Shown piece by piece: positions 4,854 to 60,613 of a DNA stretch of 64,000 nucleotides. A program made the position numbers and the translations under genes. Source of the DNA: Phorcus lineatus. Its lineage: Eukaryota > Mollusca > Gastropoda > Trochida > Trochidae. The notes under the pieces were generated by a model. The model ran no database searches, was not told where the DNA came from, and worked only from the letters and a program-made list of their open reading frames with translations. The DNA lies in the NCBI GenBank assembly GCA_921293015.1, contig OV121096.1:23137729-23201728 (forward strand), read 5' to 3'. Each line of letters opens with the position of its first letter. The stretch's first letter is position 1.

Positions 4854-5001
4854 CAAAAACTGTGTTCCACAGGAGATATCGCTTGTGGTAGATCAAGCGA
4901 TATCTCCTAGGAGATATCGTTTTGACAGTAGATTTTGAACAATGCCCTATTACAGTCAAGTTCATGACATCACAATTGATTTACATCATCAAGTAATGAC
5001 A

Positions 5002-5628
5002 TCACAATGCTATGACGTCATAAACATGATGACTTCACAATGCTATGACATCACTCCACTGAGAGTCTTAGAGTAGTGCAGTGTCCAGGAATACACATTT
5101 TTCACGGAATCGAAATGAAAAATGATTTTGGATGATAAATAGAATCTCACCCTCGTGTCTTCTGATATCAAATATATCAACACTCTTTGATAAAAGTAAA
5201 ATATCCTAAATCACAATGCTATGACGTCATAAACATAATGACTTCACAATGCTATGACATCACTCCACTCAGAGTCTTAGAGTAGTGCAGTGTCCAGGAA
5301 TACACATTTTTCACGGAATCGAAATGAAAAATTATTTTGGATGATAAATAGAATCTCACCCTCGTGTCTTCTGATATCAAATATATCAACACTCTTTGAT
5401 AAAAGTAAAATATCCTAAATCACAATGCTATGACGTCATAAACATAATGACTTCACAATGCTATGACATCACTCCACTCAGAGTCTTAGAGTAGTGCAGT
5501 GTCCAGGAATACACATTTTTCACGGAATCGAAATGAAAAAGGATTTTGGATGATAAATAGAATCTCACCCTCGTGTCTTCTGATATCAAATATATCAACA
5601 CTCTTTGATAAAAGTAAAATATCCTCGG
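5002..5628 (+). repeat. 209-bp tandem repeat, 3 units
   Basis: Units start with tcacaatgctatgacgtcat at 5002, 5211 and 5420, an exact 209-base period, and differ at only a few positions. Each unit carries one TGACGTCA palindrome (5013, 5222, 5431). The near identity means recent local amplification. Confidence 0.92.
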
Positions 5629-10505: not shown

Positions 10506-10885
10506 TTATCATCCAAAACTGTGTTCCACAGGAGATATCGCTTTTTGAAGATCAAGCGATATCTCCTAGGAGATATCGTTTTTGACAGTAGTTTTTTTAC
10601 AATGCCCTATTACAGTCAAGTTCATGACATCACAATTGTTTTTCATCAAGTAATGACATCACAATGGTATGACGTCATAAACATGACGACGTCACAATGC
10701 TTTGGCATCGACACACTGAGAGTCTTAGAGTAGTGCAGTGTTCAGAAATATTCATTTTTCACCGAATCGAAATGAAAAATGATTTCTGATGATAAATATA
10801 ATCTCACCCTCGTGTCTTTTGATATCAAATATATCAACACTCGTTGATAAAAGTAAAAATACACTTTGGTGAGATTCTCTATATC
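10506..10885 (+). mobile_element. second copy of the foldback element
   Basis: The order matches the 4.85-5.71 kb element: atccaaaactgtgttccac, palindromic head (22-bp palindrome at 10557-10578), acaatgccctattacagtcaa, a TGACGTCA at 10670-10677, gagtcttagagtagtgcagtg and the gatatcaaatatatcaacac arm. Only one internal unit is present and most of the second hairpin arm is lost (only ttggtgagattctctat remains). Confidence 0.78.
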
Positions 10886-13799: not shown

Positions 13800-14170
13800 A
13801 CTTGATGTTACAGAAAGCGATGTCATGTATTTATAAATTTCAGGGATTGTTCATAATCTGCTATCAAAGCGATGTCATGTTTTCATAAATTGCAGGGCAT
13901 TGTTCATAATCTGCTATCAAAACGATGTCTCAATAGTTTGATCTCTCACAAGCGATATTTTTTGTGGAATACAGTTTTGGAGGATAGAATCTCACGCAAA
14001 TCTCCTCTTATATAAAAAGAATCAACGCAACTTGATAGAAGTTACAAATATCATGTTAATGACGTCATAGCAGTGTGATGTCATGTATTTGACGACGACA
14101 GGTTATTGTGTGGTAAATATACTGTCAAAACGATATCTCCTGTGGAATCAGTCTTGGAAAACAAAAGATT
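13800..14170 (-). mobile_element. decayed, partly duplicated foldback-element copy on the minus strand
   Basis: Read on the minus strand, 14135-14165 and 13945-13985 match the head (ttccacaggagatatcg). The segments 13815-13870 and 13870-13925 are two tandem copies of the part after the head (ttttgatagcagattatgaa caatgccct). TGACGTCA lies at 14060-14067. The structure is rearranged and the ends are uncertain. Confidence 0.45.
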
Positions 14171-15789: not shown

Positions 15790-15805
15790 ATAGATATGAT
15801 AGACT

Positions 15806-16120
15806 ATGATGTGTCAGAATATGTTTCTCTTGAATTTGTTTTATGGGAATCATTCAAATATATATCAAATATTGATTGATCTTTCCAGCAATCACAAATG
15901 TAAGTTGGAATATCTAGCTCCAATTCCTCTTGAACAAAGAATATGTAAATTGTGCGATATTAATGATATTGAGAATGCATTCCATTTTCTCAATGTTAGA
16001 AAAATATATGCAGATTCAAGACATGGATTCTTGAAATTTGCTTCATCTGCCGATCGTTCCTTTCTACATATCATTCAGCCCGACCTGACTGTTTATCCTT
16101 TATCAAGCGGTAACATATGA
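15806..16120 (+). pseudogene. LINE (non-LTR) reverse-transcriptase protein, C-terminal remnant
   Basis: A 104-codon open frame contains PLEQRICKLCDINDIENAFHFLNVRKIYADSRHGFL. This matches the conserved tail of many invertebrate LINE ORF2 proteins (an (I/V)P-x-E-x-R-x-C-x-x-C then E-x-x-x-H-F-L-x-x-C-x-x-Y pattern). The usual Cys after HFL is replaced here (NVRKIY), consistent with a dead copy. Everything upstream (RT, endonuclease) is missing, as in normal 5'-truncated LINE insertions. Clade assignment (I/Nimb or related) is uncertain. Confidence 0.72.
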
Positions 16121-24522: not shown

Positions 24523-26140
24523 ATCATCCCTGCGATCTATGTTCCCGTTCATGACATCCCTGCGATTTCTGTTCACGTTCATGACATCCCTGCGATCTAT
24601 GTTCCCGTTCATGACTTATCATCCCTGCGATCTATGTTCACGTTAATGACTTATCATCCCTGCGATCTATGTTCCCGTTCATGACATCCCTGCGATCTCT
24701 GTTCACGTTAATGACATCCCTGTGATCTATGTTTCCGTTCATGACTTATCATTCCTGCGATCTCTGTTCCCGTTCATGACTTATCATCCCTGCGATCTCT
24801 GTTCACGTTCATGACATCCCTGCGATCTCTGTTCACGTTAATGACATCCCTGTGATCTATGTTTCCGTTCATGACTTATCGTCCCTGCGATCTCTGTTCA
24901 CGTTTATGACATCCCTGCGATCTATGTTCCCGTTCATGACTTATCATTCCTGCGATCTCTGTTCACGTTCATGACATCCCTGCGATCTATGTTCCCGTTC
25001 ATGACTTATCATTCCTGCGATCTATGTTCCCGTTCATGACATCCCTGCGCTCTCTGTTCACGTTAATGACATCCCTGTGATCTATGTTTCCGTTCATGAC
25101 TTATCGTCCCTGCGATCTCTGTTCACGTTCATGACATCCCTGCGATCTATGTTCCCGTTCATGACTTATCATTCCTGCGATTTCTGTTCACGTTCATGAC
25201 ATCCCTGCGATCTATGTTTCCGTTCATGACTTATCATTCCTGCGATCTCTGTTCACGTTCATGACATCCCTGCGATCTATGTTCCCGTTCATGACTTATC
25301 ATTCCTGCGATCTCTGTTCACGTTCATGACATCCCTGCGATCTATGTTCCCGTTCATGACTTATCGTCCCTGCGATCTCTGTTCACGTTCATGACATCCC
25401 TGCGATCTGTTTCCGTCCATGACTTATCATCCCTGCGATCTATGTTCCCGGTCATGACATATCATCCCTGCGATCTATGTCCACGTTCATGACATATCCT
25501 CCCTGCGATCTATGTTCCCGTTCATGACGTATCATTCCTGCGATCTATGTTCCCGTTCATGACATCCCTGCGATCTCTGTTCACGTTCATGACTTATCAT
25601 TCCTGCGATCTCTGTTCACGTTCATGACATCCCTGCGATCTATGTTCCCGTTCATGACTTATCATTCCTGCGATCTCTGTTCACGTTCATGACATCCCTG
25701 CGATCTATGTTCCCGTTCATGACTTATCATTCCTGCGATCTCTGTTCACGTTCATGACATCCTTGCGATCTATGTTTCCGTTCATGACTTATCATTCCTG
25801 CGATCTCTGTTCACGTTCATGACATCCCTGCGATCTATGTTCCCGTTCATGACTTATCATTCCTGCGATCTCTGTTCACGTTCATGACATCCCTGCGATC
25901 TATGTTCCCGTTCATGACTTATCATTCCTGCGATCTCTGTTCACGTTCATGACATCCCTGCGATCTATGTTCCCGTTCATGACTTATCATTCCTGCGATC
26001 TCTGTTCACGTTCATGACATCCCTGCGATCTATGTTTCCGTTCATGACTTATCGTCCCTGCGATCTCTGTTCACGTTCATGACATCCCTGCGATCTATGT
26101 TCCTGTTCATGACTTATCGTCCCTGCGATCTATGTTACCG
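24523..26140 (+). repeat. 30/35-bp minisatellite with 65-bp higher-order structure
   Basis: About 50 units of a 30-base sequence (atccctgcgatct-a/c-tgttc-c/a-cgttcatgac), alternately with and without a 5-base insert ttatc. Two unit types alternate: type A has ctatgttcccg, and type B has ctctgttcacg preceded by ttatcattcc. From about 24900 onward they form a regular 65-base dimer. Frames read through some 30-base units but are broken by the 35-base ones, so this is not coding. Confidence 0.95.
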
Positions 26141-28261
26141 TAATCTTGTTTTGTTATTGTGGATGATTTCTGATTGATACAGTATTGATGACAAATCGCT
26201 GAATGATTCACCAATTCGCTTACCTTAGGCGGTTCTTGCGTTTTTATAGGAAATACGGTACCACTGGCCATGTTCGAGTGCACGGGTATTTTACTGTTTT
26301 ATTGAACTTGAAATAGATCATGATGTATATTGATGAATTGATTATGATGAAGATTGAGGAGTCCTTTATCTGGGGCAGTGAAAGGCTTTAGAAAGGGCTG
26401 TTAATCGTTATTAGACCCTGTCCAGTTTGTTCTTGTGACATAGATTTGTAGATTTTGTCATCTGTCATGAAACAGAGAGAGCCAAAAATTGAATTTTAGG
26501 AATAAGTTGAAAATTGTGCAAAGAATTTTACAACTAATTCTCAAGCTTGGTATATTGAACAGCGATTATTTCTATGGCATTGGGACAACAATGTTATCAC
26601 GTGAAACATCATGAATAAAAGGTCATTTGTCTTTCGTTACTAACAGTAGTGTATATTTGCAAAAATACTCTTTCAGGAAGTAAAATCAAATATGTCGATC
26701 TCTCTTCATACATACAGTCATACATACAACTATTAACAACACATATTTATTCATATCTGATCTTTAAAAAAATGTTATATGTTTCATGGGAATCCAGATA
26801 TTAATGTGGCAGGGTTAGTATTTTAAGTTGTATTAATTGTTTATTGTATTGTATAAATAGGTGTACTGAATATATTGTCTTGTCACATTTTTATACATTC
26901 ATACAGAAAAACATTCTTATTAATAAAGAAAAGGAGAAATAAACACCACCGGAGTGTCGAATGAATCATGTTTCTCTGACATCGTGCACATGGGGATTAT
27001 TCCTTACGTGCATTTGAAGGAGAGGCAATGTAAAGAAAATTTGGAGCACGATCGATTTAAATAAGAATATCAATCAGATTATTTATAAGAGTTTTTATTT
27101 CAAAAACACACAACCCACATTGAACTGAAATGATATAATCAGGAAAAGAATACAAAGATAATCGATGTTCAATATTCAAAACCACTATTCAGTTCATGTA
27201 ATCAACAAATACATCGACAATTCTATTCTATTTTATTACTTTCAGTACGACCTGATATGAAAATGATGATCTAATCTATTTAGATTGTGAAATGTATGTA
27301 TCTGTACCAAGCGATACGTTTAGGTGCACGGAAGTTGTCCATTTCACCATGTGATGCACGTATTTAATGTATTTCACGGGGATTTGTGCAGCAAACAAAT
27401 GAAAGAAGATGGTTACAAGGACGTGGAGAAAATGGAGTGGTCCCCTGTTTCAAACAAAAATATATCAGTGTTCCAAGTTTTAGCAGAAGAAGTTGCATGG
27501 TGAAATATATTTGGTGTGTTATATTCTTTAGAATTGTATATTGTCCATTAAGTTTTTAGTGTATGATCTGACGTAAAACATCTAACTTCATCACCAAAAT
27601 AAATCTAAGAAAATATCAAAAGTCAAACTTGGAGGCAAAGGGACCCGCAAGCCTAGGGTGTAAGTCACGATTCAGTAAACGTGGCGAGGCGTAGCCGAGA
27701 CATGACCACCGTATCAAACTTAGAAGTTGGTTTTCAGATAGCAAACAGTTTAATAACCGACCTCTCGTTTGCTCTGAAATCAATCATCTAAATATAACTA
27801 CCTCTAATATTGATCTGATAACCAAACCACGTGGTGTATCTTTTTATGATGATGCCAGTATATTGAACAGGTGAGGTAACAGTATCACAGTTTCTTGCAT
27901 GCGTCCGAAAATACATCTCGAGTTTAGAATCCGATTTAGTTCGGATCATAAAACAACTAACTTTGTAGTTGCATGGATATTATTTAATGTATTCATAGTT
28001 GAGTGGTATTCATATAAGCTTATAGCTTTTTTACCAATCCAATTCTTTGTTGAAATAATTATTTTGAAAGCATACATAAATATGAAATTTATCTTCTTTT
28101 GTTACTGGTGCAATATTTGATCATTCCCAGTCTATCATCCCAGTCTTTAGGACCTCATCAGCATGGCGCGTGTGGAACATGGTTAGACTTTCAGCAATGC
28201 AACATCATCAACGTCGCAAAGCAATTTATGAAAATTCCACTCATTCACCTGGATGTCTAAT
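26141..28261. other. non-coding DNA
   Basis: AT-rich. A short inverted motif gcgaggcgtagccgag near 27680, within a GC-richer stretch (27630-27710), resembles hairpin tips of foldback elements but could not be extended into a full element. Confidence 0.45.
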
Positions 28262-28487
28262 ATATATATTATTAGCATAATTTGCAATATATCCTAGTAC
28301 ATTGTACTATATTTTGTTATAAAAACGCTTGTAATGCGATGTTAACGATCATATCGTTTCATCCCTCATGAGTCAATACTATTGACGAAATACTAGTATC
28401 GGATTAAAATGATTCTACAAACGACTATGTGAAGTATGTTATATTTAATCTATATCTGACCTTGCGTTTGAACCAATTCAACTTTTC

Positions 28488-28493
<6 letters not shown>
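28262..28493 (+). mobile_element. dispersed repeat copy 1 carrying a hammerhead-ribozyme fold
   Basis: It aligns by eye over about 200 bases with 46332-46538, including the shared blocks caatatatcct, aatgcgatgttaacgatcat and acgactatg, and both copies run into an AT microsatellite. This is a non-autonomous repeat family. The hammerhead inside (28347-28414) suggests kinship with retrozymes or Penelope-associated ribozyme elements, which are known in molluscs and other metazoans. Neither end shows a clear target duplication. Confidence 0.6.
28347..28414 (+). ncRNA. degenerate type I hammerhead ribozyme, copy 1
   Basis: Elements in order: outer stem I ATCAT (28348-28352); inner stem I ATCC (28361-28364); core CTCATGA (28365-28371) where the consensus is CTGATGA; stem II GTCAA/TTGAC (28372-28376 with 28382-28386, loop TACTA); GAAA (28387-28390); a very short stem III A-TAC/GTA-T (28390-28393 with 28396-28399, loop TA); then C at 28400 as the cleavage nucleotide. 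The 3' strand of stem I follows as GGAT (28401-28404) and ATGAT (28409-28413), with internal loops between. All stems pair. One essential core base differs, so activity is unlikely. Short stem III is typical of minimal animal type I hammerheads. Confidence 0.62.

Positions 28494-28548
<55 letters not shown>
28494..28548 (+). repeat. (AT)n microsatellite
   Basis: About 27 AT units directly downstream of hammerhead repeat copy 1. Confidence 0.97.
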
Positions 28549-28551
<3 letters not shown>

Positions 28552-29483
28552 AGTTAGTCTGAAAAACTGTCGAGACTTGCAAACAATATGTTCGAACTCG
28601 GTGTCTTTCTGCATACGCATGGACCCAGAGGCCCACGGATTTACCATTTAAAGTCAATAATGTTCGCGAAAGTCGAGACATATGTCCACAGATCATTACC
28701 CCAGAGGTAATCAACCTATGCCGATGGAATGCGTAGTACTTATACTAATGACAGTTGTTTACATAGTTATGCAGTAAAGGCGGTTGTGAATTTTATGAGT
28801 AAACGTGTGACCTTTCACCCCTGGTGCGGACAAATGTGATTTATGTTAGAAATATATTCACGCCCGTCGTTTATGTCATCTGGCTTCTAAGCGCCGTCTA
28901 AGGTTGCTTAAACTCAAGCGCTTAATCGCAACCGTTTCAACACAGATCGCCCCACGAGAGACGTTTAGAAGTTTGCGGTGAAGCAGGTCAAACATATGGA
29001 TGATAAGTTTCGTGAATTTTGTGAAGAGATTTCTACTTCCAAATTCTATTCAAGATCTTAAATCTTATACGATAATATGAGAAATAGAAAAAGTCACACC
29101 GGAATACTATTTATGACAACTATATTATGTATTTATATAACAACTGTTCTGCTTGTTTTCTTTTAAATCTGACTATTAATCAAGGAATCCGTGTAAAGTT
29201 CCTGGCAACTAACTTAGCTTGTTTATAATTCACACTTTAGAGTATACAACAGCTGCTTTAATGTTATTCTTCAGGTGAATACCATCCAAGAAGCCGTGTT
29301 ATCTTGAAAAAAGTGATATCTATATTAATCTTACTGTCCATCTTTATTCCCATGTCATACTTTATACTATGAAAATAAAACTGAACAAATATTGCAACTT
29401 GACTTCTTGTAAATGGTGTCGACCTCTCGTGCCTTGTTTGTGTGTGTGTGGGTGTGGGTGTGTGTGTGTGTGTGTGTGGGTGT

Positions 29484-38559: not shown

Positions 38560-40015
38560 AATATACTGAGACTGACAGTGGGACAGAGACAGATAGAAAG
38601 AAATAGAATGATAGAGAGAGCGATATACATATAGACTGACAGACAGAATTTGATAAACACACATGTGGAGATTGTGATGTATTGAGAGACAGATGCCGAT
38701 AGAAAGACAGAGACTTCCAGATATACAGGGACTAATAGAGGGCCATAGAGAGATGGACTAATACGTATTTGATTTGAGAATGATAGAGAGACGGAGACTG
38801 ATAGAAAGATAGAGATTGGTAGAAAGACAGGGAATGATAGAGAGACGGAGACTGGTGGAAAGATAGAGATTGGTAGAAAGACAGAGAATGATAGAGAGAC
38901 GGAGACTGATAGAAAGATAGAGATTGTAGAAAGACAGAGAATGATAGAGAGGCGGAGACTGATAGAAAGATAGAGATTGGTAGAGTGACGGAGACTGATA
39001 TAAAGATAGAGATTGGTAGAGTGACGGAGACTGATAGAAAGATAGAGATTGGTAGAGAGACGGAGACTGATAAAAAGAGATTGGTAGAAAGACGTAGAAT
39101 GATAGAGAGACGGAGACTGATAGAAAGATAGAGATTGGTAGAGAGACGGAGACTGATAAGATAAAGATTAGTAGAAAGACTGAGAATGGTAGAGTGACGG
39201 AGACTGATAGAAAGACAGAGAATGGTAGAGTGACGGAGACTGATAGAAAGACAGATATTGGTAGAAAGACAGAGAATGGTAGGGTGACGGAGACTGATAG
39301 AAAGACAGAGAATGGTAGAGTGACGGAGACTGATAGAAAAATAGAGATTGGTAGAAAGACAGAGAATGGTAGAGTGACGGAGACTGATAGAAAGAGATTG
39401 GTAGAAAGACAGAGAATGGTAGAGTGACGGAGACTGATAGAGAGACAGAGAATGGTAGAGTGACGGAGACTGATAGAAAGATAGAGATTGGTAGAAAGAC
39501 AGAGAATGGTAGGGTGACAGAGACTGATAGAAAGATAGAGATTGGTAGAAAGACAGAGAATGGTAGGGTGACAGAGACTGATAGAAAGACAGAGAGGGGT
39601 AGAGTGACGGAGACTGATAGAAAGATAGAGATTGGTAGAAAAAAAAACAGAGAATGGTAGAACGACGGAGACTGATAGAAAGACAGAGAGAGGTAGAGTA
39701 ACGGAGACTGATAGAAAGATAGAGATTGGTAGAAAAACAGAATTGTAGAGTGACAGAGACTGATAAAAAGAGATTGGTAGAAAGACAGAGGATGATAGAG
39801 AGACGGTGACTGATAGAAAGATAGAGATTGGTTGAAAGACAGAGGATGATAGAGAGACGGAGACTGGTGGAAAGATAGAGATTGATAGAAAGACAGAGAA
39901 TGGTAGAGAGACAGAGATTGGTGGAAAGATAGATTAGTAGACAGGTTGACAAAAGAGGTAGAGAGATAGAGGGACAGATACTGGCAGAGAGACAGGGATT
40001 GACAAACAGACAAGG
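38560..40015 (+). repeat. 18-bp (54-bp trimer) purine-rich minisatellite
   Basis: The basic unit is agagacggagactgatag (18 bases) and variants (aaagatagagattggtag, aaagacagagaatgatag), often cycling as a 54-base trimer. As 18 is a multiple of three, several frames stay open on both strands: 461 codons on the minus strand (38732-40117), another overlapping minus frame (39168-40130) and plus frames at 39194-39660. Two overlapping long frames in different registers show that the openness comes from the repeat and not from selection. The minus-strand product would be endless SLSFYQSPSLYH-type repeats. Confidence 0.93.
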
Positions 40016-46331: not shown

Positions 46332-46538
46332 TGATATATAATTATATAATAATTTTACAATATATCCTTGTACATAATTTTCAACATATCCTTTACATTG
46401 TACGTATATTTGAAATGCGATGTTAACGATCATATCGTCCCTGATGAGTCAATACTATTGACTAAATACTAGTATCGTATTAAAATGATTCATTCTGCAA
46501 ACGACTATGTAAAGTATGTTATATTTTATTTTTATTGT
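46332..46538 (+). mobile_element. dispersed repeat copy 2 carrying a hammerhead-ribozyme fold
   Basis: This is the second copy of the repeat at 28262-28493, in the same orientation, again immediately followed by (TA)n (46539-46562). It differs by scattered substitutions and a short gap in stem I, so the two copies have drifted independently for some time. Confidence 0.6.
46429..46489 (+). ncRNA. degenerate type I hammerhead ribozyme, copy 2
   Basis: Core CTGATGA is exact at 46441-46447. Stem II is GTCAA/TTGAC (46448-46452 with 46458-46462, loop TACTA). The second core block reads TAAA (46463-46466) instead of GAAA. Stem III A-TAC/GTA-T is the same as in copy 1 (46466-46469 with 46472-46475), with C at 46476 as the cleavage nucleotide. 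Outer stem I ATCAT/ATGAT is kept (46429-46433 with 46485-46489). Inner stem I is shorter and mismatched compared with copy 1. Because each copy has intact the core block that the other lacks, the family consensus at core positions matches a true hammerhead. Confidence 0.62.
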
Positions 46539-46562: not shown

Positions 46563-46573
46563 ATTAACAAAAG

Positions 46574-46697
46574 ATATGTTCAATTTAAGGTGTAACCAGT
46601 TTCAAACGTTTTGTTTTGCTAAACAGTAAACATAAATATGTTCAATTTAGGTGTAACCAGTTTTAAACGTTTTGTTTTGTTAAAAAGTGCGTAAGGT
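46574..46697 (+). repeat. 62-bp direct duplication
   Basis: atatgttcaattt...ggtgtaaccagttt...aaacgttttgttttg occurs at 46574 and 46636, just after the (TA)n behind the second hammerhead repeat. Confidence 0.88.
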
Positions 46698-52360: not shown

Positions 52361-55300
52361 GTGAGTACTTACATTGTGGACCATTAGGACACGATGACAG
52401 AACTAGGACTAGGACATGGCTAGGACATTACATGTGTTATAAATAAAAAACATATTGATATTCAAAATCAGAGACCGCCACTGCAAAGTATGGAAGTTAC
52501 ACATCCAATCTTGTAACGTCATGGTATGGCACCATCTGGATTCGAACCTCGACGTTCTCAAAGTTTATTTGTTTTGAGTGACGGTGCAGAAGGCACTGAC
52601 AAGTTCTGTACTTAGCTATCGCAAGAATTTTTACTTGCTTATTGATGGATTCGAATGTTATGTCTCAATATAGACATTGGGGTACGACTTATAGATACAC
52701 ATACAAATTATTAAAGCAGATATATGTTTTTATGGAGTGTAATTTGTTTGCAATAATGCTAATACCTTGAATGTCTTGAATATCAATGTTGGCGTCATTT
52801 TGACACCATTGGGAAAAGTTTTAGAACCTGATGAAAAAAAGGAAACATTATAGGATATGGACAACTCTTTTATTTAAAGAATACGATGTTTTGATATAAC
52901 ATGATGGCTCCCTAGCTTTATTGAATGCAAGAAAAGGTGACGAGCCGAAGGGAAAACAATTTGATTAATAACAAATACATGTTTGAAATGACATCAGTAT
53001 ACAAGAATGTATGTCAACTCAGTTATTCTTGAAATGGTAATTTGAAACGGAAATGCAGGATCATACTAAGATTTATTTGTGTTTTCTCTTTAAGTTCCAT
53101 GTTTATGTCCCTGATTTTGTCCTGTTAGTAGGAGTCCTTATAAATAATATCACTCATAAACTGACTAGCTTCATTTCATGTTTTCTTACGATCACTCTTA
53201 GGACAAGAGGTTTTCTGACATCAAGGCTTCACTTACTTATATTTTGACATGGGTATTATTATTGCAGTTCCCAGTAGGAGAATATGGTTACCCCGGCCAA
53301 CACAGCGACTGTTACCAGGAGAGCGGGTACCAGAATGGGTACGACCCCTTCACACAGCTGACAGCAATGGCGGCCGAGCACAACTTCACGGGTAACTTCA
53401 CCAGTAATTCACAATGTCCCAGTCCAAACTTCACGATGCAGAGTCCAAACCCCAACCAACACGTCATGACGTCATCACCACAACAGTACTTTCCGTCCGG
53501 CCTGTCTTGCAGATACAGCTCCGTAGGTAGTGAGAGAACGTCCTGTGAGATGGATACAAGCACGGAGTCCTGTAATAGGAATGCCGCTTGTAAGAAGTCC
53601 TATCCTTCCCACACAGAGGAACTCTTTGAAGGTAATACCAACATATATGGTCTTGCATTGTTCTTGCAAATATTTGCTTCCTTTCAAATTGCCATTGTGT
53701 AACAACTTTGGACTTTATTTGTTGATGCATGTCACATTGTCACAGTTGACCTTTAAAAGCCAAGACAGTATTTCAACTGCAAAATAACTTATGCACATAA
53801 AGCATACAAAACTTTAATTTGTAAATCAATGAGAAAACGGAACTGCAAACACATCCAATTGTAGTCCTTACGATACCGTTACAGTGGTGTCCTGTGGCTT
53901 AAAATGTTGTAAATATTTGCGCCCCTTCTCCATCTAATGCCTGCCCTCTGTCTGCAGATCAAGATAGTTTCCTGAGCTGGACACGGAAGCACCCTGAACA
54001 CTGGAACTGTAAAGAGGTGCTGGACTGGTTGTTCTACCTGGGCCAGGAGAAGGATCTCAATATGAGTCAACTGAGAGCAGAAGCTTTCCAGGACGTGACG
54101 GGATCACAACTCTGTACCATGACCTTGGAGGACTTCAACAAGATTGACCCCAAGTTCGGCAAACTCTTCTACGAGATGCTTCGGAAGCTGTTGCTCGGTG
54201 GAGGTTTGTACAGCTAAGAAGTTCTCTTACGCCAGAATATAATATATTTTGCAGCAAAATTAAATATCAAAGCTATTGCCTCATCTAGGGAAGCTTTAAA
54301 CATTTTCGAAAATGCTTTATGTCTTACTGTGGTAATTTCAAGCATTGGGTAAATATGAAATATGTTTAAGAGATGACAAGAATGCTTTGGAACGTTGCTT
54401 TTGAAGGTGTTATTTCAGTCGTGGACCAGGATGTCCGGATATAGTCCGATCATACTCAAATCCTCGTTACGTTATGACCAAAGGGTAGTGTCTTGACAGT
54501 ACACGAATACTCCTTGTCTGAAGAAGTCAATCAACAATTTCATGTGTCCGCAACTGTTACTTTGGATCGGGTTGAATTCCATGTGACTTTTGTGAATGAC
54601 ATGATGAGGCAAGTGGTAAAGGATAGAGATAGTGTCGGTTGAAATTCAATATCGAAGAGAGCAATGTATTCAACCAAATATCGAAAACTTTACATGAAAG
54701 ATTAATGTAAGTGATGAGTTATTTTCCTGGTTTGCTGAAATATTGTCCTTCTTAGATAATACTATTACTTAAAAGGCTCTACTGTTAATTCTGGATTTTA
54801 TACAACCCATATTTAACATATTGTGTTAATTATTTCATTTTTAGTGGTATTCACAAAGCCGACAGAAGTTGCCTCCCCTGATATGGCAGATCTCACGTCC
54901 TTCACCCCCGGGTCATGTGACTCGGCTGGTTCCAACTTCCAACCGTGCAACTCACCCGTTTACACAAACCTAGTCCGGAAGCAAGACCAAGGTGAGATAT
55001 AATTTTACAATTTAGAATTGTTTTGCAATCGATATAAGTAACCGAGAATCTTTTTTTAATACAGTAATGTAAACCAATTTATTTTCAAACCAATGGTCTG
55101 TTGAGACTGTTGTACTTTCAAGAATTGTAACATTTTGCCACAAACTGTCAAATTTTTTGACAATCATCAAATCGATATGCTTCGAAAAAAACAAGGCGAT
55201 TTCTCAATCACGTCCTTCTTATCATTACAGTTTTATATACTATGTCTTCGTAAAGATCTGCGATACCTGTGAAATAATTTGATAACGAGCTGAAAAGTTT

Positions 55301-59760: not shown

Positions 59761-60613
59761 CCTATTGGAAAGATCTTAAAAATCTAAGCGTATGGAGTAT
59801 CACACAGACCATTTCACTTATCTCAATCCATGGATGGATGGATATTGAATATACTTTTGGATCTAATGTATATATTATTGATACATATAAGTAAAAACCT
59901 TTAAAAAATGGTGTTCATGCTTATAAGCTTTGTCCTTCGTTATGTTGGAAGTTAAAGGCAATAATAAAACGTACAGCTGTATTAATTGTATATTAGAATA
60001 CCAAAGAGAAAATATAAGTACTTTGGAGCTACCATGGTATAGCAATTGTCACTTCTTTATCATGGATTTTTCAAAAAATCCGGGATGTCTTTATAAGTGA
60101 AAGATTAAGGTAATCAAATCTTGGATGATATATATATGAATAATTAAATCCAAAGAGTAATCTTTTCATCAGTTAACTTTTAACAAGTGACAGGAAAGCA
60201 TATAATATGACATGTAAGACATCTTAAAAAAATATAATGAAAAACAAAACGATTTGTAATTAAGTGAATAAATGCTCATATAGATATTTAAAACTTTTGA
60301 ACTGCCATGACATAAATGTTTATTCATATCTAGGAAAGCGTTAGTCAAAGTTCATCAGTGTTACCTCAGGATTAGAACTCTACACATTGTTGGTTTATGT
60401 ACATATATGCTATTTTTGTTACTATTTAATGACGGTGCTAGGCTGTTTCGTTATAAATATACATATAGTCTGTAAGTGCAAAGCATCTGTTGCTATTTCA
60501 TAACTTGTACAAATGAAAATTGATGTTACATGGATTTATAGCATATTTTTTGTAAGAATGTATGTTTTATTTACACATTGACATTTTTGACAGATGTCAA
60601 AAAACACTTTGCA

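Follow-up and report, generated by a model that had tools for sequence, protein, structure and literature searches.

In the sections cited here, small animal repeats with type I hammerhead ribozymes are reported to be transcribed, to cut themselves, to form circles (probably by way of tRNA ligase), and to be copied by a foreign reverse transcriptase (PMC7229834, PMC7761336). Retrozymes, as part of PMC7229834 describes them, are 170–400 nt long with under 45% GC and a type I hammerhead, and they usually lie in tandem. Penelope-type hammerheads are characterized, in the passages cited, as being without helix III or loop-loop contacts (PMC7761336, PMC6155905). And the Sm-alpha element of Schistosoma mansoni is introduced in a passage of PMC6155905 as a non-autonomous retrotransposon with a type I hammerhead.

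In the window (the whole stretch of DNA that we analyzed, 64 kb long), a dispersed repeat occurs twice, and its first copy probably contains a decayed type I hammerhead. We think it probable that copy 1 is a non-autonomous, non-coding element about 190 bp long, most likely a non-LTR retrozyme or SINE-like element of the metazoan kind. The first-pass annotation had also pointed to the retrozymes. The metazoan non-LTR retrozymes of Acropora, Mytilus, and Ambystoma, as PMC7229834 describes them in part, do resemble the repeat in their type I hammerheads, size, low GC content, and short stem III. But the same sections describe them as tandem, from dimers upward, while both copies in the window are single and damaged in the core, so the tandem arrangement does not fit; and the likeness is drawn from their published description. 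The repeat does belong among the small (about 150–450 bp), low-GC, non-coding repeats with a type I hammerhead, the hammerhead being a relic. Phage type I hammerheads (from IMG/VR) share the core and the stem layout with copy 1, but their context is unrelated; in one of them (L019), stem III is built from the same ATAC/GTAT pairs as in the hammerhead in the window.

Hammerhead layout of copy 1

Read directly from the plus strand, copy 1 has the order ATCC CTCATGA GTCAA-TACTA-TTGAC GAA ATA-CTAG-TAT C GGAT. Stem I is open and stems II and III are closed, which is the type I topology. The relic, with an extended stem I, spans 28353–28413 (+), as judged from the listed pairs, an enforced fold, and a match at 28355–28410 to our covariance model R1 (described below). 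The three stems, GAAA block, and cleavage C that had been annotated at 28347–28414 can all be seen in the sequence and the pair listing within this span. The inner part of stem I pairs 28361–28364 with 28401–28404 (ATCC/GGAT, as listed by script). The core block at 28365–28371 (+) is CTCATGA instead of the canonical CTGATGA, so the single-base departure noticed earlier is real; the altered third base (C for G) is what we take to be G5 in standard numbering. Stem II, GTCAA-TACTA-TTGAC at 28372–28386 (+), pairs 28372–28376 with 28382–28386, and a sixth pair beyond these 5 bp is optional.

The core GAA (28387–28389) and stem III together occupy 28387–28399 (+) in the pair listing. Stem III itself, from A28390 to T28399, is ATACTAGTAT, a perfect 10-nt palindrome. 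It had been described as a minimal stem with a 2-base loop. Because a hairpin loop of 2 bases is sterically unlikely in RNA, stem III stands but is better read with 3 bp (ATA/TAT) closing a CTAG tetraloop. The predicted cleavage base, from its place in the type I layout, is C28400 (+), and the cut in an intact relative would fall between 28400 and 28401. When the core pairs were imposed, the folding program gave stem I, beyond its inner 4 bp, a 1x2 internal loop followed by an outer helix of 7 bp (28353–28359 with 28407–28413). Outer helices of such quality were obtained from 527 of 20,000 random segment pairs drawn from the window.

The hammerhead is not the predicted minimum-energy fold of copy 1: at 28344–28417, the enforced hammerhead has −7.0 kcal/mol, versus −9.6 kcal/mol for the free fold. 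In copy 2 (at 46415–46500), it is far from the predicted minimum, with −3.7 kcal/mol enforced and −15.4 kcal/mol free. The free fold of 28335–28425 was no better than the folds of shuffled sequences (z = −0.51, with 55 of 200 shuffles at least as stable). An upstream hairpin, AACGAT-CAT-ATCGTT, is present in copy 1, and near-identical letters are present in copy 2. A palindromic stem III or loop is tied to dimeric cutting in one passage of PMC3088659 (the legend of Fig. S8). Because stem III of copy 1 is palindromic and weak, optimal cutting may have taken place as a pair of hammerheads. We think it unlikely that the repeat is a solitary SINE-like family of about 190 bp, never in tandem arrays, in which the palindromic stem III would lead to cutting in trans as a dimer and the upstream hairpin would compete with stem I and could keep the ribozyme switched off.

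The first-pass annotation had also pointed to the Penelope-associated hammerheads, and we considered that the repeat might be the remnant of a Penelope-like element, whose hammerhead would come from its pseudo-LTR. The minimal hammerheads of Penelope-like elements and Terminons have type I topology and non-coding dispersal in common with the repeat, and the portion of PMC7761336 cited here counts thousands of minimal motifs in many metazoan genomes, mostly dispersed and non-coding. However, the same portion describes these motifs as being without helix III or loop interactions, while the hammerhead in the window has both a stem III and a long, extended stem I. Furthermore, among the 77 ORFs of at least 45 amino acids listed near the copies, the 20 that we checked (10 near each copy) gave no match to a reverse transcriptase or GIY-YIG domain, although decayed short fragments could escape such a check. 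The association with Penelope is thus unsupported, and we doubt it.

Two copies of a dispersed repeat

Copy 1 of the repeat (28262–28455, +) is non-coding, single, and about 190 bp long, with a GC content of 26.8%. Copy 2 (46334–46535, +) has a GC content of 23.8% and is partly duplicated close to its 5' end. These limits come from BLASTN and global alignment, and the lengths they imply (194 bp for copy 1 and 202 bp for copy 2) are approximate, as are the upstream limit of copy 1 and the 5' limit of copy 2. BLASTN aligned 28276–28455 with 46373–46535 at 78.9% identity including gaps (E = 3e-41 and 3e-39), and the global alignment of the two copies has 12 substitutions at 173 aligned positions along with several gaps. 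BLASTN found no third copy within the 64-kb window (E up to 0.01). There is no tandem arrangement: both copies are single, and searches of the window give just that pair. In 28100–28900, the only direct repeat is one 17-nt AT-rich pair. TA tracts lie 3' of both copies, with differing distances and lengths.

Copy 2 also contains a type I hammerhead relic, at 46431–46486 (+), which R1 scored at 26.9 bits (E = 8e-6). Its CTGATGA block is intact (46441–46447), but TAAA takes the place of GAAA, and mismatches together with a deletion of 5 bases break its stem I. The two copies, the only ones available for comparison, do not differ from each other in stems II and III. Thus, neither copy has the intact catalytic core (CTGATGA, GAAA, and H at the cut); each has one change, and the changes are in different places. 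Within the 36-nt ribozyme block, the copies differ at 2 positions, and at each of these one copy has the canonical base. Because each copy is canonical where the other is broken, the simplest history is one in which the core of their common source was probably intact. Both copies are probably dead and are predicted to be inactive.

Could either copy be a variant-core ribozyme that still works? Rare natural core variants do cleave, as a passage of PMC3088659 reports. But the same passage has mutations at most core positions sharply lowering activity, and we see no change in the copies that would compensate. Furthermore, copy 2 alters G12, which is the proposed general base in the section of PMC6155905 cited here. 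We consider a working variant to be highly improbable.

In the alignment of the two copies, the ribozyme block does not clearly stand out from its surroundings by better conservation: it has 2 substitutions in 36 positions, as compared to 5 in 55 downstream and 1 in 29 and 3 in 51 upstream. Nor do the lesions clearly cluster in the core (2/36 versus 12/173 overall), so we do not claim selection.

DNA patterns that are specific to the family had no match in viral contigs (5 patterns) or in genome contigs (1 pattern). This is not evidence against the family, because those contig collections are not expected to include animal genomes. Six short motif strings were absent from the paper texts that were searched, with supplements and sequence databases lying outside that search.

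The window has other repeats as well. Immediately 3' of repeat copy 2 are two 61-bp tandem units (46566–46688). A 65-bp unit is present in about 25 copies at 24525–26141, with higher-order periods of 130 and 195 bp. A 209-bp unit has three copies with 98% matches (5001–5625, 10506–10858, and 13894–14141) and has diverged relatives elsewhere in the window, in both orientations. A long array of 18/54-bp units at 38776–39933 leaves several minus-strand frames open, with low-complexity ORFs of up to 475 amino acids; these are probably not genes. The end of an ORF at 15803–16120 (+), for which Pfam gave nothing above the cut-off, resembles, by eye, the C-terminal tail of a LINE reverse transcriptase. 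An exon-like ORF at 53903–54217 (+) has a Pointed (SAM_PNT) domain (Pfam, E = 3.9e-14), and its nearest solved structures are ETV6 entries, followed by EHF and ELF3. This ORF is probably part of a gene for an ETS-family transcription factor, judging by its domain, and it suggests that the window is DNA from an animal.

Model searches, controls, and chance

At the gathering score, Rfam reported no family in the 64-kb window. With the threshold relaxed to E ≤ 10, Rfam still had no hammerhead in the window or in the separately searched stretches 28262–28493, 28340–28420, and 46415–46500; the relaxed output for the window and for the stretches around the copies consisted of weak matches to other families only. 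For controls, we drew on a search of IMG/VR with a general type I pattern, which gave at least 120 stretches; those listed contain 96 sites that show the whole type I layout. Eight of these loci, with intact motifs and 35,764 bases in all, were run through Rfam. Not one of the 8 had a match to a hammerhead family at the gathering score, so this score is of little use for such motifs. Below the gathering score, there was some match to the hammerhead clan at 6 of the 8 intact sites. L062 matched RF00163 at 28.5 bits against 34, and five other loci (L003, L036, L037, L051, and L061) had sub-threshold matches to type III, with clan mates hidden by the tool. L062 also contains, beside its hammerhead, a Twister-P5 ribozyme at 1199–1253 that reaches the gathering score. 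In another IMG/VR contig (L088:1882–6206), five type I hammerhead sites lie within 4.3 kb.

The remaining two controls, L019 and L028, had no match when the full loci were searched, but both (2/2) matched RF00163 when they were searched alone as 81-base stretches (at 24.8 and 23.8 bits). The matched lengths were 81 bases for copy 1, 86 bases for copy 2, and 81 bases for the controls. Because the relaxed search of short stretches sees both intact controls and neither copy, the copies in the window are clearly poorer than intact hammerheads. This shortfall is consistent with relics that have lesions in the core. At the same time, no other result speaks more strongly against reading the repeat as a hammerhead.

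We also built a covariance model, R1, with the canonical structure from 38 phage type I hammerheads and no sequence from the window. We chose the 38 rows by hand out of the 96 IMG/VR sites among the matches listed (L008 was left out), and two rows whose 3' parts are shifted in the alignment (L061 and L072) were retained. Because the training sites were selected for an exact core and for a GTC/GAC base of stem II, R1 is biased towards those letters. When both strands of the 64-kb window were searched, copy 1 ranked first (31.6 bits, E = 2.2e-7) and copy 2 ranked second (26.9 bits, with the E-value given above); these E-values are rough. The top three matches were unchanged with the filters off. 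The third, at 60138–60182 (−) with 16.7 bits, skips stems II and III, and we set it aside. Of the covariance-model match that was expected at a relaxed score, then, Rfam shows nothing for either copy, while the locally built model finds both. The hammerhead ancestry that had been proposed for this dispersed repeat is supported by R1 and by the second copy.

As a yardstick for these scores, the best R1 match was at least 37.4 bits in all 20 of 20 other loci (from the at least 120 in IMG/VR); none of the 20 is a row of R1, yet at least three (L015, L026, and L066) contain motifs identical to rows. Weaker matches in the same loci include one of 30.7 bits that passes the intact-core pattern (L071, 8879–8941) and one of 23.9 bits (L067). 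So the scores of the copies in the window do not reach those of typical intact phage motifs and are roughly on a par with those of the poorest ones.

A descriptor that allows at most 1 core mismatch, and that requires at least 4 bp in stems II and III, an A-T pair closing stem III, and a cut base other than G, matches the window at exactly two places, 28365 and 46441, which is one per copy of the repeat. Copy 2 satisfies it only at the loosest setting for stem I (1 bp). In 1,000 dinucleotide shuffles of the window, the number of places that the descriptor found depended on the minimum length set for stem I: 0 at 4 bp, 2 at 3 bp, and 14 at 1 bp. These figures favor the site somewhat, because the descriptor was composed after the site had been seen and takes stem III to have 4 bp and a loop of 2 bases. 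The layout of copy 1 exceeds chance.

It might still be that an AT-rich repeat merely resembles a hammerhead by chance. Rfam is blind to both copies even though it found intact motifs in the matched searches, the free fold is no more stable than shuffles, and the site was chosen by a reader who was on the lookout for such motifs. However, this seems inconsistent with the empty result for shuffles at the 4-bp setting, with the E-value of copy 1 in an independent model, and with the second copy having the canonical base at the very lesion of copy 1. We consider chance resemblance to be very unlikely.

How the element may have spread

If copy 1 derives from a retrozyme or SINE-like element, as we propose, then the intact source element would have been transcribed, and its hammerhead would have cut the RNA after the C that corresponds to 28400, with a 2',3'-cyclic phosphate and a 5'-OH as the new ends. 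The cleaved RNA would then have been closed into a circle, probably by the host's tRNA ligase. Finally, the reverse transcriptase of another element would have copied the RNA, and the copy would have been integrated at a new site. We infer that the ancestral element was active, formed circular RNA, and retrotransposed, following the model published for the small animal repeats described at the outset.

The Sm-alpha element of Schistosoma mansoni is SINE-like. The repeat could instead have spread as a retroposon of this kind, with a hammerhead but with single copies arising from linear RNA rather than from circles. In favor of this, the copies are single, with similar ends that are followed by (TA)n tracts. 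Sm-alpha, as PMC6155905 describes it in part, is like the repeat in being non-autonomous and in having a type I hammerhead; this likeness too is drawn from the published description. However, in a simple consensus scan, the repeat has no box A with a box B at the usual distance behind it, and so lacks the Pol III pair by that scan. The sole box B-like match (with 3 mismatches allowed, on the minus strand of copy 1 near its 3' flank) lies across the box A-like matches. Nor was a tRNA found, in a search at bacterial settings. We regard SINE-like spread as a real alternative, if a rather doubtful one; it is a narrower form of the explanation that we prefer, and the probabilities of the two overlap.

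Curated thresholds can miss motifs such as these, as a small set of examples shows: all 8 intact phage loci fall below the Rfam gathering score, and relics with a single lesion such as these go unseen, yet a local model finds them. With its probable, decayed hammerheads, the family adds one more dispersed repeat of the animal type with hammerhead ancestry, as is expected given the published surveys.
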